The position numbers and the translations under genes were made by a program. This document shows, one piece after another, positions 8,516 to 14,690 of a stretch of 64,000 bases of DNA (position 1 is its first letter; each line of letters starts with the position of its first letter). Origin of the DNA: an uncultured Pelagibacteraceae bacterium (GTDB lineage: Bacteria > Pseudomonadota > Alphaproteobacteria > Pelagibacterales > Pelagibacteraceae); the NCBI GenBank assembly GCA_902597175.1, contig CACJWN010000001.1:1-64000 (forward strand), in the 5' to 3' direction. Below the pieces are notes generated by a model. It saw only the letters and a list, made by a program, of their open reading frames with translations. It did not search any database and was not told where the DNA came from.

Positions 8516-9088
8516 TTATCTTGGAGATCTTTTGGAAAGAATTCTTTGCAATGTTCTTCTATGCATTTTAAGTCTTCGTGCTGTTTCAGATACGTTTCTA
8601 TTGCAAAGCTCAAATACTCTGTGTATGTGCTCCCATTTAACTCTATCTGCTGACATAGGATTTTCAGGTGGCTTTGCTTTTGACTCTGGAGATGCTAGAA
8701 GTGCAGCTTCCACATCATCAGCATCAACTGGTTTAGCAATATAGTCTATTGCGCCAACCTTTACTGCCTCTACAGCAGTTGGTAGATTCCCGTATCCCGT
8801 TAACATCACTATTCTGCTTTCTTTTTTGTTTTTGGAGAGTTCTTTGACGACATCAAGCCCATTACCATCCTCAAGTCTTAAATCTACCACGGCAAATGCC
8901 GTTGGGGAGTTTTTAGCGATATTTAGGCCCTCAGCTACAGATTTTGCCTCTTTTACTTGAAAACCTTTCTTTTCCATTGCTCTAGCGAGCCTTCCTCTCA
9001 GTGGATCGTCATCATCGAGAATAAGAAGCGTTTTATCCTCAAAGTCGGCCAATTTTAGCTGCTCAGGTACATTTCTTTGTGATCTCAT
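8516..9088 (-). CDS. regA: RegA/PrrA/ActR-type redox response regulator
   Basis: Response regulator with a receiver and a short Fis-type helix-turn-helix. Receiver: LILDDDD acidic pocket, phospho-acceptor Asp in FAVVDLRLEDG, conserved TGYG and KPVDADD. The C-terminus VSETARRLKMHRRTLQRIL is the diagnostic RegA DNA-binding helix. I choose the ATG at 9088 (190 residues); a TTG at 9115 would add nine residues without family support, and neither start has a clear ribosome-binding site. The cognate kinase gene regB lies 4.3 kb away beyond the polyamine operon. RegB/RegA pairs control redox-responsive energy and nitrogen or carbon genes in alphaproteobacteria. Confidence 0.9.
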   Translation of the reverse strand: MRSQRNVPEQLKLADFEDKTLLILDDDDPLRGRLARAMEKKGFQVKEAKSVAEGLNIAKNSPTAFAVVDLRLEDGNGLDVVKELSKNKKESRIVMLTGYGNLPTAVEAVKVGAIDYIAKPVDADDVEAALLASPESKAKPPENPMSADRVKWEHIHRVFELCNRNVSETARRLKMHRRTLQRILSKRSPR

Positions 9089-9248
9089 GGGACTACATAT
9101 GGGTACTGTTGACAAAATTTCAACACGACAAAAATGTCTTTTTTTCTTTACATAAAGAGAAAAAAACCTTAAACGCGAAATAAATAAGGTTTTTTTTATT
9201 AAATTTTTTAAAAAATCTTTGTGTAATTTAACGCGAGGGACACATGAA
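9089..9248. promoter_or_regulatory. Divergent regA / polyamine-operon control region with competing inverted repeats
   Basis: Two inverted repeats share one A-run. Arm 9139-9150 (T-rich, ending CTTTA) can pair with 9153-9166. Alternatively 9160-9171 (A-run followed by CCTTA) pairs over 12 bp with 9185-9196 (TAAGG followed by a T-run). Because 9160-9166 belongs to both, the folds exclude each other, as in attenuators. The heptamer AACGCGA occurs at 9172-9178 and again at 9230-9236, just before the decarboxylase start. I see no convincing sigma-70 promoter pair for either gene. Function is inferred, not shown. Confidence 0.4.
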
Positions 9249-10430
9249 ATGGGAAAATTTAAAACAGTTAACGAATTAGTTAACTCATTAAAACCAGATT
9301 ACCCCGTATATTGTATACGGCTTGACGAGATTAAGAAATCCGTAAAATTTTTCAAAGAAAATTTTCCTGGAAATATCCTCTACGCCGTAAAAACTAATCC
9401 AAATGAAAAAATTATAAAACAAATAATTAATAGTGGCATTAATGAATTTGATGTCGCTTCTTTAAATGAAATTAAACTAATTAAAAAAATTAAATCAGAC
9501 TCGAAGCTACATTTCATGCATACAATTAAAAGTAAAGAAAGTATTTCTTCAGCTTATTTTGACTACGGTGTAAGAAGTTTCTCTCTGGATAGTAAAGATG
9601 AATTAAGAAAAATTTTAGATGCTACTAACCAGGCAAAAGATTTAGAACTATTTGTAAGAATTGCAATTTCTAATGAACACGCAGAAATAGATTTATCTAG
9701 AAAATTTGGCGCTCTTCCATCTGAGGCTTTGGGGTTGGTCAGATTATGTAAAGATTATTCAAAAAAACTTGGGATAAGCTTTCATGTAGGTTCTCAATGC
9801 ATGCATAAAATCTCTTACTCTAAGGGCATACGTGAAATAGGAAACATAATTAAAAAAACGAAGATAGTCCCAGACACAATCAACGTCGGAGGCGGTTTCC
9901 CTTCTATTTATCCAGACCTTAATCCTGAACCATTAATAAATTACATGGATGAAATTAAAAAAGAATTAAACAATTTAAAACTTAATAAATTGCCTAAAAT
10001 AATCTGTGAGCCAGGAAGATCTCTTGTGGCAGAAAGCGGCTCAACAATCGTTAAAGTTATTTTAAGAAAAAAAAATAGTCTGTATATCAATGACGGAACA
10101 TATGGGTCTTTATTTGACGCTGGCGCACCAAATTTTGTTTTGCCATCAAAGATGATTACAAGTGGAAGAGTTCAGTCAAAAAAACTTACTGCTTTTAGTT
10201 TTTTTGGACCTACTTGTGATGGGCTAGATTATATGAAAGGTCCTTTTTTATTACCAAACAATATTAAAGAAGGTGACTATATAGAATTAGGTCAGCTAGG
10301 CGCTTACAGTCTTACTTTCAGAACAAACTTCAATGGCTTTTATTCAAATGAAATTCACGAATTAAGTGACAAACCAATTATATCTATGTACGATAATACA
10401 AATGATAAAGTTGGTTCTTTAGTAGCTTAA
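9249..10430 (+). CDS. Alanine-racemase-fold (type III) PLP amino-acid decarboxylase, ornithine/lysine type
   Basis: PLP enzyme of the ornithine/diaminopimelate decarboxylase fold, 393 residues from the ATG at 9249, which has GAGG about 11 bp upstream; a TTG at 9219 is also open. PLP lysine is in YAVKTN (residue 48), the phosphate-binding stretch in GGGFPS, CEPGRS follows, and FGPTCDGLD holds the catalytic cysteine. DGTYGSLFDAG aligns with the substrate-specificity segment of ornithine decarboxylases and keeps an Asp. It heads a four-gene operon with agmatine-pathway genes, so an arginine-decarboxylating activity cannot be excluded. Best call is ornithine (or lysine/ornithine) decarboxylase giving putrescine or cadaverine. 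Confidence 0.82.
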   Translation: MGKFKTVNELVNSLKPDYPVYCIRLDEIKKSVKFFKENFPGNILYAVKTNPNEKIIKQIINSGINEFDVASLNEIKLIKKIKSDSKLHFMHTIKSKESISSAYFDYGVRSFSLDSKDELRKILDATNQAKDLELFVRIAISNEHAEIDLSRKFGALPSEALGLVRLCKDYSKKLGISFHVGSQCMHKISYSKGIREIGNIIKKTKIVPDTINVGGGFPSIYPDLNPEPLINYMDEIKKELNNLKLNKLPKIICEPGRSLVAESGSTIVKVILRKKNSLYINDGTYGSLFDAGAPNFVLPSKMITSGRVQSKKLTAFSFFGPTCDGLDYMKGPFLLPNNIKEGDYIELGQLGAYSLTFRTNFNGFYSNEIHELSDKPIISMYDNTNDKVGSLVA

Positions 10431-11476
10431 TGAATAAAAAAAATAGTCCAAATATTGGACACAATAAAAAATCCTTACTTAATTCGCCGGTTGAACATAT
10501 CGACATAAAATCTTTCGATGCTCGAAAGATAATTGAAGGAATGGGTAAAATGTCTTTTACCTCTCGTGATACGGCTAGAGCAGCGAAAATTTACAATGAA
10601 ATGCTCGCAGATAAAGATTGTTCAATTTTTTTAACTTTAGCAGGATCAACTTCAGCAGGTGGATGCATGGATCTGTACACTGATTTAGTAAAACATAACA
10701 TGGTTGACGCTATTGTTGCTACGGGGGCCTCAATTATTGATATGGATTTTTTTGAAGCTCTAGGATTTAAACATTATCAAGGATCTCAATTTCAAGATGA
10801 TACTGAACTCAGAAATAACTATATAGATAGAATCTATGATACTTATATAGATGAAGAAGAGCTTCAAGCATGTGACAAAACTATATGTGATATTGCTAAT
10901 TCTCTAAAACCTAAGACATATACTTCAAGAGAATTTATCCAAGAACTCGGAAAATATTTAAAAACAAATTCTAAGAAAAAAAACTCATTAATAGAAACTG
11001 CTTTTGATAATAATGTTCCTATATTTTGTCCCGCTTTCACAGATAGTTCAGCAGGATTTGGACTTGTAATGCATCAGGAACAAAATCCTAAAAGTCACAT
11101 CACTATAGACTCAATAAGAGAATTCAGAGAAATAACTGAGATTAAACTCAAATCAAAACAATCAGGTTTATTAATGGTTGGAGGCGGGGTACCCAAAAAT
11201 TTTATTCAGGATACAGTGGTTTGCGCAGAATTATTAGGAAAAAAAGTAGATATGCATAAATACGCTATTCAAATAACTGTTGCAGATACGAGAGATGGAG
11301 CTTGTAGTAGTTCCACTTTAAAGGAAGCGAGTTCATGGGGTAAAGTGGATGTGACGAAAGAGCAAATGGTATTTGCTGAAGCAACAAGTGTATTGCCACT
11401 AATAGCAAGCGATGCCTTTCATCGTAAACATTGGCAAGTAAGGCAAAAAAGAAATTTTCAGAATTTATTTAATTAA
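10430..11476 (+). CDS. Deoxyhypusine synthase family protein, probable aminobutyl-transferring polyamine enzyme
   Basis: 348-residue member of the deoxyhypusine synthase family. Visible features include the GASIIDMD stretch, CPAFTDSSAG, GGGVPK and SSWGK, whose Lys305 matches the lysine that carries the butylamine imine in the eukaryotic enzyme. Bacteria have no eIF5A to modify, so a small-molecule acceptor is expected; homospermidine or spermidine-like synthesis is the natural proposal, since plant homospermidine synthase arose from this family. The gene starts within the decarboxylase stop (1 bp overlap) and is followed 6 bp later by aguB, so a polyamine role is strongly indicated. The exact product is unknown. 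Confidence 0.82.
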   Translation: MNKKNSPNIGHNKKSLLNSPVEHIDIKSFDARKIIEGMGKMSFTSRDTARAAKIYNEMLADKDCSIFLTLAGSTSAGGCMDLYTDLVKHNMVDAIVATGASIIDMDFFEALGFKHYQGSQFQDDTELRNNYIDRIYDTYIDEEELQACDKTICDIANSLKPKTYTSREFIQELGKYLKTNSKKKNSLIETAFDNNVPIFCPAFTDSSAGFGLVMHQEQNPKSHITIDSIREFREITEIKLKSKQSGLLMVGGGVPKNFIQDTVVCAELLGKKVDMHKYAIQITVADTRDGACSSSTLKEASSWGKVDVTKEQMVFAEATSVLPLIASDAFHRKHWQVRQKRNFQNLFN

Positions 11477-11482
11477 AAAATA

Positions 11483-12358
11483 ATGAGTAAAACAAAGATA
11501 GCATTAGTACAGATGAAAATGTCATCTGACCCAAAAAAAAATATTAAAAATGCTATTGGCAAAATTAATACTGCAGCAAAAAAAGGCGCAAAAGTAATTT
11601 GCTTACCAGAGTTATTCTTAACAAAATATTTCTGCCAAGCTGAAAGTCATGAGAACTTTAGTTTCGCTGAGAAAATACCAGGGCCTAGCAGTAACTTATT
11701 TTCTTCAATTGCTAAAGAACTGAAAATTATTTTAATAATTTCATTGTTTGAGAAGAAAACCTCTGGGCTTTATCACAATAGTAGCATTGTAATTAACGAA
11801 AAAGGTAAACTTTTAGGAAAATATAGAAAAATGCATATCCCTGATGATCCACAATTTTACGAGAAATTTTATTTTACCCCAGGAGATTTAGGTTTTAAAT
11901 CATTTAAGACTTCAAAAGGTAATTTGGGAACTTTAATTTGCTGGGATCAATGGTTTCCTGAGGCAGCAAGATTAACAGCTCTTAAAGGAGCAGAAATTAT
12001 TTTTTATCCAACTGCTATTGGGTGGCACCCAAAAGAAAAAAGGAAATTTGGCAAGTCACAACTCGAGTCTTGGCTTTCAATCCAGAGGTCTCACGCAATA
12101 GCTAATGGTATATTTGTTGCAGCAATAAATAGAGTTGGAATTGAAAAACAAGGTAATAAAAAGATCGAGTTCTGGGGGAATAGTGTAATATTTGATCCAA
12201 GTGGTAACGTTGTAAAAAAGGCCAGTTTAAAAGAAAGCATTTTAATTTGTGAAATTGATTTCAAAAAAGTAGAAACCTCTAGACAACATTGGCCTTTTTT
12301 TAGAGATAGAAGAATAGACTATTATAAAGGACTACTTAAAAATCCAAGAGATGCCTAG
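11483..12358 (+). CDS. aguB: N-carbamoylputrescine amidase
   Basis: Nitrilase-superfamily hydrolase of 291 residues that converts N-carbamoylputrescine to putrescine, CO2 and ammonia. The catalytic triad is visible as Glu43 (CLPELF), Lys116 (YRKMHIPDD) and Cys153 (LICWDQWFPE). HIPDDP and the C-terminal FFRDRRIDYY match the AguB subgroup rather than other nitrilases. It overlaps agmatine deiminase by 8 bp, so the two steps from agmatine are coupled in one operon. Confidence 0.93.
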   Translation: MSKTKIALVQMKMSSDPKKNIKNAIGKINTAAKKGAKVICLPELFLTKYFCQAESHENFSFAEKIPGPSSNLFSSIAKELKIILIISLFEKKTSGLYHNSSIVINEKGKLLGKYRKMHIPDDPQFYEKFYFTPGDLGFKSFKTSKGNLGTLICWDQWFPEAARLTALKGAEIIFYPTAIGWHPKEKRKFGKSQLESWLSIQRSHAIANGIFVAAINRVGIEKQGNKKIEFWGNSVIFDPSGNVVKKASLKESILICEIDFKKVETSRQHWPFFRDRRIDYYKGLLKNPRDA

Positions 12359-13397
12359 AAAAACAAAATCTCTTTTCAGGATGCCAGCTGAATGGGAAAG
12401 GCAACAATCTACATTAATGGGATGGCCTAATAATAAAAATGACTGGCCAGGCAAGTTCGGCAATATTCCTAAGATATTTGCTAAAATAATTTCAAACATT
12501 ACAAAATCCCAGGAGGTAAATCTTTTAATTAATAACTACAAATCTAAAAATATAATTAAAAAATTGCTTAGGAAAAATAATGCAAGAATACGAAATGTAA
12601 AATTTATAATTTGTAAAACAGATAGAGTATGGATGCGAGATACAGGGCCAATATTTATAAAAGATAAAAAAAATCAAAATATATTATTAAATTGGGAGTT
12701 TAATGGTTGGGCTAAGTATAAAAATTACAGAGCAGATAACAGAGTTAATTTGAGAATAAAAGATCATTACAAAGGAACTGTGATCAATCCTAAATTTAAT
12801 GAAAAATCCATAGTTCTTGAGGGTGGAGCGATTGATGTTAATGGAAAAGGTTTACTACTCACAACAAAAGAATGTCTTTTAAGTAAAATTCAACAAAGAA
12901 ATTCTTTCTTAAAACAGAAAGATTATAATTTCATCTTCAAAAAGTTTTTTGGTGCAAAAAAGGTTATTTGGCTAAATAAAGGAATTGCAGGAGACGATAC
13001 TCATGGTCACGTTGATGATATTGCTAGATTTGTAAAATTTAATAAAGTTTTTCTTGCTTACGAAAGTAACAAAAAAGATGAAAATTTCAAAAATCTTGAT
13101 GAAAACCTCAAAATTTTAAAAAAAATTAAAATTGGTTCTTCACAAATAAAAATTATTAAAATTCCTATGCCTAGACCTATTTATATAAATAAATGCAGAG
13201 TTCCAGCTTCGTATTTAAACTTTTATATCTTTAATAAATTTGTTTTGTTGCCAACTTTCAATGATCCCAAAGATAAAAAAGTAATCAAAATTTTTAAAAA
13301 AGAATTTAATAATAGAAAAATTGTTCCAGTAGATTGCTCTGAATTAATTTGGGGGTTTGGGGCAATTCATTGTTTAACACAACAAGAGCCAAAATAA
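12351..13397 (+). CDS. aguA: Agmatine deiminase
   Basis: Guanidino-group hydrolase of the pentein fold, 348 residues, converting agmatine to N-carbamoylputrescine and ammonia. It begins with the family feature MPAEWERQ...MGWP, and has WMRDTGP, GDDTHGHVDD (catalytic His/Asp region) and the terminal active-site Cys341 in GAIHCLTQQEP. The product feeds AguB, encoded just upstream. No arginine decarboxylase of a classical type is visible here to supply agmatine, so agmatine may be imported or made by the operon's own decarboxylase. It ends 3 bp from the convergent regB stop. Confidence 0.93.
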   Translation: MPRKTKSLFRMPAEWERQQSTLMGWPNNKNDWPGKFGNIPKIFAKIISNITKSQEVNLLINNYKSKNIIKKLLRKNNARIRNVKFIICKTDRVWMRDTGPIFIKDKKNQNILLNWEFNGWAKYKNYRADNRVNLRIKDHYKGTVINPKFNEKSIVLEGGAIDVNGKGLLLTTKECLLSKIQQRNSFLKQKDYNFIFKKFFGAKKVIWLNKGIAGDDTHGHVDDIARFVKFNKVFLAYESNKKDENFKNLDENLKILKKIKIGSSQIKIIKIPMPRPIYINKCRVPASYLNFYIFNKFVLLPTFNDPKDKKVIKIFKKEFNNRKIVPVDCSELIWGFGAIHCLTQQEPK

Positions 13398-13400
13398 AAT

Positions 13401-14690
13401 TTACCTTTTTAGTAAAATATTTTTTGGTGACCAGCTGATTACTACTGAAGCACCACCCAAATTTTTGTCGTCTTTAAATAACAGTTTGGCGTTTTGTCTC
13501 TCTAACAAAGTTTTACCTAGGAAAGTTCCAAGACCTAGACCTGAATTTGAATTTAATTCTAATGATCTGGATTTAATATATGGTTCACCCAATTTCTCAA
13601 TTATATCTTTAGGGAAACCTGGGCCATCGTCATTTACTGTAATTTTAATTTCTTTTTCATTACTAATTAGAAAGATATTAACCTTACTTTTTGAAAATTT
13701 AATCGCGTTTCCGATAAAATTTCTTAAGCCATAGATCATTTCTGCAGATCTCTGAATATCAATTTTATTTTTATCTTTATCAGATACAAGAGTTATTTCT
13801 TTTGAAGAAGTTTCTTTAAAGGAATTTATTATTTCCTCAAGTAAATTCTCTAGTTTAGTTGAACTAAAAAATTTATCTTCCTCGATTTGTTTTTTTGAAA
13901 TTCTTTTTAAGATTTCACTACATCTCTTAGATTGACTTATTAACAGATCAATGTCTTTAGAAAGGTCCTCGTTGTCTCCAATTTCTTTCTTTAATTCTTT
14001 TGCTACTACACTAATTGTAGCTAATGGTGTTCCAAGAGAATGCGCAGCAGCAGCAGCTTGACCTCCTAAAGACTCCAACTCGTACTCTTTATAAATTACT
14101 TCTTGAAGTTTTTTAAAAGCTTCCTCTGTTTTCTTTTTTTCTCCAGCAAATCGAATACCAAAATAACTAAGAAATATTAAACCAATTAAAATAGATATTA
14201 TTATTCCAATTTTATAAAAATTTGGGAAATACAACAAATTCATGTCTTCACCTGGTAATGGCAAATGAAAAAATGAGATAATTAATAAAAGTATTGATGT
14301 TATCAAACCTAGAATTATTGTGGTTCCCATACTTAAAAATGTTGAAGAAACTATAGCTGGAATTATTAATAAAAAGGAGAAAGGATTAAATATTCCACCC
14401 GTCAAGTAAAGAAGAGCACTTAACTGTATTAGATCAAATAGTAGAAAAGGGGCAGCATAAATATCTTTAAGTTGATTAATTTTGATACCAAATTGAAGAT
14501 ATAAGTTTGTGATCAAACCAAGTGAAATGATTAAATAACATTCTAAAATTGGAAACGGTAAATCTAAATAATAGTAAACAATACCAATAGCTAAAAACTG
14601 GCCAAAAATAGCTATATATCTTAAAATTGTGAGTGTATTTTTATCTAAGCTTAAATTCTCTTTTGTTCGGAAAAGAGTGGTGAAATTCAT
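13401..14690 (-). CDS. regB: RegB/PrrB/ActS-type redox sensor histidine kinase
   Basis: 429-residue membrane kinase with about six transmembrane helices in residues 20-180. The quinone-sensing motif GGIFNPF is at 98-104 between helices. The H box GGQAAAAAHSLGTPLA has His217. Cys257 in ISQSKRCSEIL sits where RegB has its redox-active cysteine. ATPase motifs follow (GLRNFIGNAIKFS, DDGPGFP, GLGLGTF). The gene is 7 bp downstream of gyrB on the same strand, and its likely partner regA is separated from it by the oppositely oriented polyamine operon. Confidence 0.9.
   Translation of the reverse strand: MNFTTLFRTKENLSLDKNTLTILRYIAIFGQFLAIGIVYYYLDLPFPILECYLIISLGLITNLYLQFGIKINQLKDIYAAPFLLFDLIQLSALLYLTGGIFNPFSFLLIIPAIVSSTFLSMGTTIILGLITSILLLIISFFHLPLPGEDMNLLYFPNFYKIGIIISILIGLIFLSYFGIRFAGEKKKTEEAFKKLQEVIYKEYELESLGGQAAAAAHSLGTPLATISVVAKELKKEIGDNEDLSKDIDLLISQSKRCSEILKRISKKQIEEDKFFSSTKLENLLEEIINSFKETSSKEITLVSDKDKNKIDIQRSAEMIYGLRNFIGNAIKFSKSKVNIFLISNEKEIKITVNDDGPGFPKDIIEKLGEPYIKSRSLELNSNSGLGLGTFLGKTLLERQNAKLLFKDDKNLGGASVVISWSPKNILLKR

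Follow-up and report, generated by a model that had tools for sequence, protein, structure and literature searches.

The window, by which we mean the whole stretch of 64,000 nucleotides analysed, carries a four-gene SAR11 operon that on balance probably makes homospermidine from arginine by way of two agmatines and caldomycin, a substrate use that we infer. In this pathway the decarboxylase would convert arginine to agmatine, and the enzyme resembling deoxyhypusine synthase (DHS) would use NAD and an imine on K305 to take the 4-guanidinobutyl group from one agmatine. Transfer of this group to the amine of a second agmatine would give caldomycin (1,9-bis(guanidino)-5-azanonane). AguA would then deiminate and AguB decarbamoylate both ends of caldomycin, provided that they accept it, to yield homospermidine. 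A wider proposal is more tentative, and we hold it to be quite possible but short of probable: SAR11 would make homospermidine via caldomycin without putrescine as an obligate intermediate, with SpeB or AguA plus AguB as interchangeable finishers, and marine T4-like phages would carry a complete three-gene cassette of pyruvoyl arginine decarboxylase (from SpeD), caldomycin synthase and ureohydrolase.

SAR11 bacteria belong to the most abundant bacteria of the ocean, and earlier published studies were unable to assign a role to their DHS homolog. If our reading is true, it describes a polyamine route that needs neither SAM nor ornithine, and a pathway shown in one thermophile extends to ordinary marine bacteria.

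The operon, its leader and its published counterparts

The following features, all on the forward strand, make up the operon and its leader:

9148..9226, +, conserved operon leader (alignment of 16 near-relative sequences)
9249..10430, +, alanine-racemase-fold PLP decarboxylase, 393 aa (Pfam PF02784/PF00278)
10430..11476, +, DHS-fold enzyme of the caldomycin synthase (CdmS)/NF002699 type (NF002699 577.5 bits; PF01916; pocket residues)
11483..12358, +, AguB-like carbon-nitrogen hydrolase, N-carbamoyl hydrolysis (PF00795; TIGR03381 301 bits)
12351..13397, +, AguA-like agmatine deiminase (PF04371 349 bits, above cut-off)

The DHS-like ORF encodes 348 aa and matches PF01916, its sole Pfam match, over the full length with 328 bits against a cut-off of 27; it is the only PF01916 match in the source genome (988 kb, 86% complete). 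The first-pass annotation of this DNA had recognized a DHS-family gene with the imine lysine in an SSWGK motif, and this is borne out, the lysine being K305. It had also placed the gene next to a decarboxylase and AguB/AguA with a spacing of 1-6 bp. The neighbours are as described, whereas the spacing needs correction: decarboxylase and DHS-like gene overlap by 1 nt (TAATG), a gap of 6 nt precedes AguB, and AguB and AguA overlap by 8 nt. Both a source of agmatine and the guanidine-removing enzymes are present within this one operon. Among the matches listed, the nearest SAR11 loci come from uncultured Pelagibacteraceae, with a DHS-like protein 97% identical to that of the window.

Judged from its sequence, the decarboxylase most probably acts on arginine, as an enzyme of the SAR11 'ODC/ADC' type. 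Homologs of 68-76% identity occupy the same place in the operons of SAR11 loci L078-L137, and the two 'ODC' homologs assayed, from Pelagibacter (394 aa) and Fonsibacter (396 aa), decarboxylated arginine and not ornithine or lysine (PMC9992855, Table 2). For the AguB-like protein TIGR03381 is the best NCBIfam match, though below its cut-off of 410, and the PDB matches include N-carbamoylputrescine amidohydrolase 5h8i. The AguA-like protein also stays under its NCBIfam cut-offs (NF010070, 259 vs 483; TIGR03380, 247 vs 382). No ureohydrolase was found in the source genome at its 86% completeness.

The leader is strongly conserved in near SAR11 relatives (window 9135-9260). It contains a terminator-like hairpin (9159-9197) that ends in a T-run and is flanked by TTACATAAAG (9148-9157) and CTTTGTGTAA (9217-9226), two segments able to pair with each other, of which the second lies near the Shine-Dalgarno sequence. 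Folding of the single sequence gave a z-score of -2.36, with 5 of 200 shuffles as good; the RNAalifold consensus is different, lacks the hairpin and shows 0 compensatory pairs. A known leader RNA was considered and rejected, as no Rfam family reached its gathering threshold in the window, the leader gave low-scoring matches only, and compensatory changes were absent. Three other SAR11 loci (L102, L104, L106) have different leaders. The element could be a candidate regulatory RNA, either an attenuator or riboswitch-like. On either side, the operon is flanked by genes on the reverse strand, a response regulator (8516-9115) and a sensor histidine kinase (13401-14690), which we take to resemble a redox pair of the RegA/RegB type; among the best 80 of 561 SAR11 loci, 21 contain a homologous kinase.

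Both the operon and its assignment to homospermidine have precedents, since the clusters of Ca. Fonsibacter and Ca. Pelagibacter and a Zymomonas route are in print. The cluster of Ca. Fonsibacter comprises an ODC-derived arginine decarboxylase, DHS/SpeY, and NCPAH plus AIH, and in the Ca. Pelagibacter variant an arginase/agmatinase homolog stands in place of the latter two (PMC9992855). Compared from the figure legend, the clusters of Ca. Fonsibacter ubiquis and Ca. Pelagibacter ubique share lineage and gene content with the window operon. The SAR11 DHS homolog is labelled homospermidine synthase SpeY there (PMC9992855, Fig. 2 legend), whereas we read it as an enzyme of agmatine coupling. Ornithine is described as the putrescine source of most alphaproteobacteria (PMC9992855); for Zymomonas a similar route was proposed, with the genes in two operons (PMC8594446). 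Within the accessible parts of the literature on caldomycin and SAR11 homospermidine, we found no prior statement of agmatine coupling for SAR11. Agmatine coupling with AguA and AguB as finishers would be a variant of the caldomycin pathway that we did not find in print.

Family and pocket of the DHS-like enzyme

The DHS-like protein belongs to NF002699, the agmatine-coupling family (an NCBIfam equivalog), passing the cut-off of 500 over residues 15-347. In contrast, it stays below the cut-offs of NF001980, 'homospermidine biosynthesis protein' (187.3 bits vs 450), and of TIGR00321, DHS (237.4 bits vs 304). A grouping with DHS relatives outside polyamine metabolism, which would have spoken against the first-pass annotation, was not found; the protein falls into a family named for the product of CdmS, a precursor of homospermidine. 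We rejected a plain deoxyhypusine synthase because of the NCBIfam cut-offs and the loss of two Asp sites. While fold and catalytic lysine are common to the window enzyme and the DHS of eukaryotes and archaea, from which we draw the mechanism by analogy, Asp243 and Asp316 of the human spermidine site are replaced by F210 and C292 (aligned to chain 9iex_B, which we take to be human), and the two sites lie 82 residues apart as compared to 73 in human DHS by its published numbering.

The enzyme after whose product the family is named, CdmS (TTHA1570) of Thermus thermophilus, couples two agmatines but accepts neither putrescine nor spermidine, and the resulting caldomycin is converted to homospermidine by a ureohydrolase (PMC10981699). 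A guanidino-removing partner is present in both systems, but Thermus finishes with a ureohydrolase (TtSpeBap) and the window operon with AguA plus AguB. The pocket residues S67, E136, D143, F204, L286, E293 and K299 of CdmS correspond to S73, E142, D149, F210, C292, E299 and K305 at a constant offset of +6; six of the seven are identical, C292 taking the position of L286, in a mapping that rests on the equal spacing of the published numbering. The roles of the CdmS residues derive from a docking model and not from mutagenesis (PMC10981699).

All seven residues are invariant in the 84 SAR11 rows of our alignment, from which 18 partial or duplicate loci were left out. The catalytic lysine of the EASSWGK motif, K305, is invariant in these and in 49 other alphaproteobacterial rows. 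The latter represent 37 distinct genes, 12 rows being duplicates of the same gene, and vary at site 210 only (36 F, 1 M). For comparison we used ten distant DHS-like proteins in two groups, five of which were scanned with NCBIfam. They share E299 and K305 (10/10) and mostly E142 (9/10), with D149 in 1/10. Since E142, E299 and K305 are common to most or all of these proteins, the pocket signal is carried by S73, F210 and mostly D149: site 73 is A in 10/10 of the distant proteins and site 210 is L, M or N, so that both separate cleanly. Site 292 is Y in the five NF001980-like proteins and L in the five NF002006-like ones, so that the latter resemble Thermus at this site and the window protein does not. 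The weak NF001980 relatives (92-113 bits in the three scanned) carry A at site 73, N at site 210 and Y at site 292. Taken as sequence evidence, membership in NF002699 and sites 73 and 210 favour agmatine as the substrate.

Two other enzymes deserve comparison. Anabaena SpeY, which we take to be a member of NF001980, is likewise a DHS homolog within an arginine-agmatine-homospermidine pathway, but the window enzyme does not reach the model of that family (187 vs 450 bits). Bacterial homospermidine synthase of the Blastochloris type (HSS) leads to the same end product as proposed here, yet belongs to an unrelated family.

Proteins of the family also occur on two plasmids of the Nostoc group (L138:7998-9041 and L140:4998-6041; NF002699, 587-592 bits), both with the Thermus-like L at site 292. 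The gene adjoins an ornithine aminotransferase on L138 or an aminotransferase on L140, and no agmatine genes are annotated in the displayed stretches of either plasmid. Outside the class, 22 genomes of a single family of the same phylum (f162; e.g., G325, G331, G415) gave very weak partial matches to PF01916 (19-32 bits each, up to 36 with in-frame neighbours) in frames of 259-354 aa; by sequence, these are perhaps a remote DHS-like family.

Guanidine removal and the choice of substrate

The company of the DHS-like gene is constant. From 561 confirmed stretches we took the best 80, all named SAR11 loci, and this choice leans to close relatives. A decarboxylase homolog lies upstream in 80/80 of these best loci, some being cut by the contig end. 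Directly downstream follows either speB (54/80) or aguB (26/80), never both and never neither, and AguA was seen in 25 of the 26 aguB-type loci, the remaining contig ending within aguB. The arrangement of DHS-like gene and aguB is therefore not due to chance. Holding the same gene position in 54 of these best 80 of 561 loci, the SpeB ureohydrolase would act as the finisher there. On a quick tree of 85 SAR11 DHS proteins, a minimum of 7 swaps between speB and aguB is needed, and well-supported branches force 5.

Across the alphaproteobacteria, 18 of 289 genomes in an even sample exceed the cut-off of NF002699. AguA or a ureohydrolase is present in 18/18 of these as compared to 183/271 of the others (Fisher P 0.002); nine of the 18 have a ureohydrolase directly downstream, and the other nine all possess AguA (9/9 vs 90/271 of the NF002699-negative genomes, P 7e-5). 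These counts and P values ignore relatedness, and G217 and G288, with a distant DHS under the NF002699 cut-off, are counted among the 271. AguA was likewise found in 22/22 further alphaproteobacterial genomes with a DHS of 64-71% identity, chosen by PF01916 and identity and not by NF002699 score. Thus, a guanidine-removing enzyme is missing in 0 of 40 DHS-positive alphaproteobacterial genomes, which span 13 families. Where a distant DHS occurs in genomes from outside the class, a ureohydrolase is present and AguA absent (11/11). Of 14 named controls, the three bacteria with a DHS fit this pattern too: Caulobacter vibrioides has AguA, Thermus composti a ureohydrolase and Deinobacterium both. 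The cut-off of NF002699 is passed by 3 of the 14 controls, a total obtained without names.

We also built an AguA tree from genomes chosen by hand. Of the class sample, 90 genomes possess AguA but lack NF002699, and 20 of these were taken (G288 labelled separately); of the 30 other genomes with both AguA and the DHS, 23 were taken. The tree omits the second AguA copies of G524 (416 bits) and G605. One clade of 17 rows includes the window AguA and stems entirely from genomes with a DHS-family gene (one a different DHS), a second of 22 rows comprises 19 with and 3 without the DHS, and the remaining 17 rows all come from genomes without it. In this hand-picked sample the AguA of DHS genomes is almost separate from other alphaproteobacterial AguA, which suggests a biosynthetic AguA subtype.

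Such company alone does not decide the substrate, because coupling of putrescine and coupling of agmatine both need an arginine decarboxylase and guanidine removal. The main rival is the SpeY reading in print: arginine is converted to agmatine, AguA and AguB turn the latter into putrescine, and from two molecules of putrescine the DHS-like enzyme forms homospermidine. This is the published assignment for SAR11 and other speY clusters (PMC9992855 for SAR11), the literature cites a need for Anabaena speY in the formation of homospermidine, the gene content suits this reading too, and the route proposed for Zymomonas is similar. However, the window protein fails the NF001980 model, and its S73 and F210 match CdmS. 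Furthermore, putrescine coupling could make use of a plain ornithine decarboxylase, so that the lack of any DHS genome without guanidine removal among the 40 favours agmatine. Physiology bears on this point as well. When strain HTCC7211 was fed with spermidine, its putrescine rose, whereas homospermidine did not increase significantly (PMC8437039). We regard the coupling of putrescine as rather doubtful, albeit to be taken seriously. Agmatine coupling agrees in part with this feeding experiment and, if true, would explain both the missing rise in homospermidine and its authors' doubt that the gene serves mainly as a homospermidine synthase. The comparison takes dys2 of HTCC7211 to be the orthologue of the window gene.

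A mixed or promiscuous enzyme might instead join agmatine and putrescine to N1-aminobutylagmatine, or accept several amines, with homospermidine as one product only. On norspermidine, HTCC7211 increased both homospermidine (P 0.04) and spermidine, and in the authors' judgement its DHS homolog Dys2 is not primarily a homospermidine synthase (PMC8437039), both of which suit such an enzyme. The rise of homospermidine on norspermidine also speaks against agmatine coupling, as does the native production of homospermidine by HTCC1062 (PMC8437039). CdmS, in contrast, took agmatine only in the reported assays (PMC10981699), and we consider a mixed enzyme improbable.

Least credible, and in our view very improbable, is the transfer of an aminobutyl group from spermidine to putrescine as in plant homospermidine synthase, which the first-pass annotation had favoured: the DHS fold and the catalytic lysine are kept and SAR11 strains do make spermidine (PMC8437039), but F210 and C292 replace the two Asp of the human spermidine site, the protein falls into the agmatine-coupling NF002699 and under the NF001980 and DHS cut-offs, the upstream gene is of a type that acts on arginine and not ornithine (two homologs, PMC9992855), and the spermidine-fed HTCC7211 disfavours spermidine as donor (PMC8437039). 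Other parts of the same annotation, namely a small-molecule acceptor rather than eIF5A, a SAM-free route and homospermidine as the end product, fit both gene content and literature.

A three-gene cassette on viral contigs

In IMG/VR, our scans revealed 19 contigs that carry such a DHS, and on 16 of these the genes for SpeD homolog, DHS and ureohydrolase are adjacent. The cassette was noted on these contigs:

L233-L246, L200, L201, L203, L208; e.g., L233:9001-11129, L245:8646-10648, viral cassette contigs (IMG/VR)

Two groups can be distinguished. The first has about 31% GC and the order SpeD-DHS-SpeB. On L212 and L245, the cassette is found among phage genes for clamp, clamp loader, translation repressor, DNA polymerase and UvsX, a context we call T4-like, and the closest INPHARED records to the polymerase are mostly marine cyanophages at 47-48% identity. 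The second group consists of five contigs of about 37% GC with the order DHS-SpeB-SpeD; that these are viral is supported mainly by IMG/VR, since PHROGs matched 1 of 7 of the group's proteins tested.

The viral SpeD homolog is likely, by sequence, a pyruvoyl arginine decarboxylase. Two of these proteins each match 12 INPHARED records, 11 pelagiphages and one uncultured phage, and the homolog of HTVC201P, a proven arginine decarboxylase (PMC9992855), shares 46.6% identity with the protein of L209 and 37.6% with that of L199. Eleven viral DHS proteins form one clade (100/100) outside the DHS of SAR11 and other alphaproteobacteria, in a tree whose root is unsure because the outgroup branches (10) are extremely long. 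All 11 have S73, E142, D149 and C292, site 210 is I in 7 and F in 4 of them, and the three that were scored reached 450-481 bits, under the NF002699 cut-off of 500. SpeD homolog, DHS and ureohydrolase together likely constitute the whole pathway, and the cassette looks like a new, predicted virus-borne path from arginine to homospermidine.

A survey of 2023 reported no SpeY homologs in viruses by BLASTP (PMC9992855), the INPHARED phages gave no match to the window DHS or to a viral DHS, and our literature search, within the accessible parts of its sources, found no other report of a virus-borne DHS cassette. If true, no agmatine-coupling route encoded by a virus would have been described before, within the reach of our literature and database search. 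Should the complete pathway reside in phages, the supply of polyamines could be tested as a component of phage infection in the sea. As for the other three of the 19 contigs, two end at the DHS after SpeD, and one is cut and carries a DHS 82% identical to the window protein; this last contig is probably bacterial.
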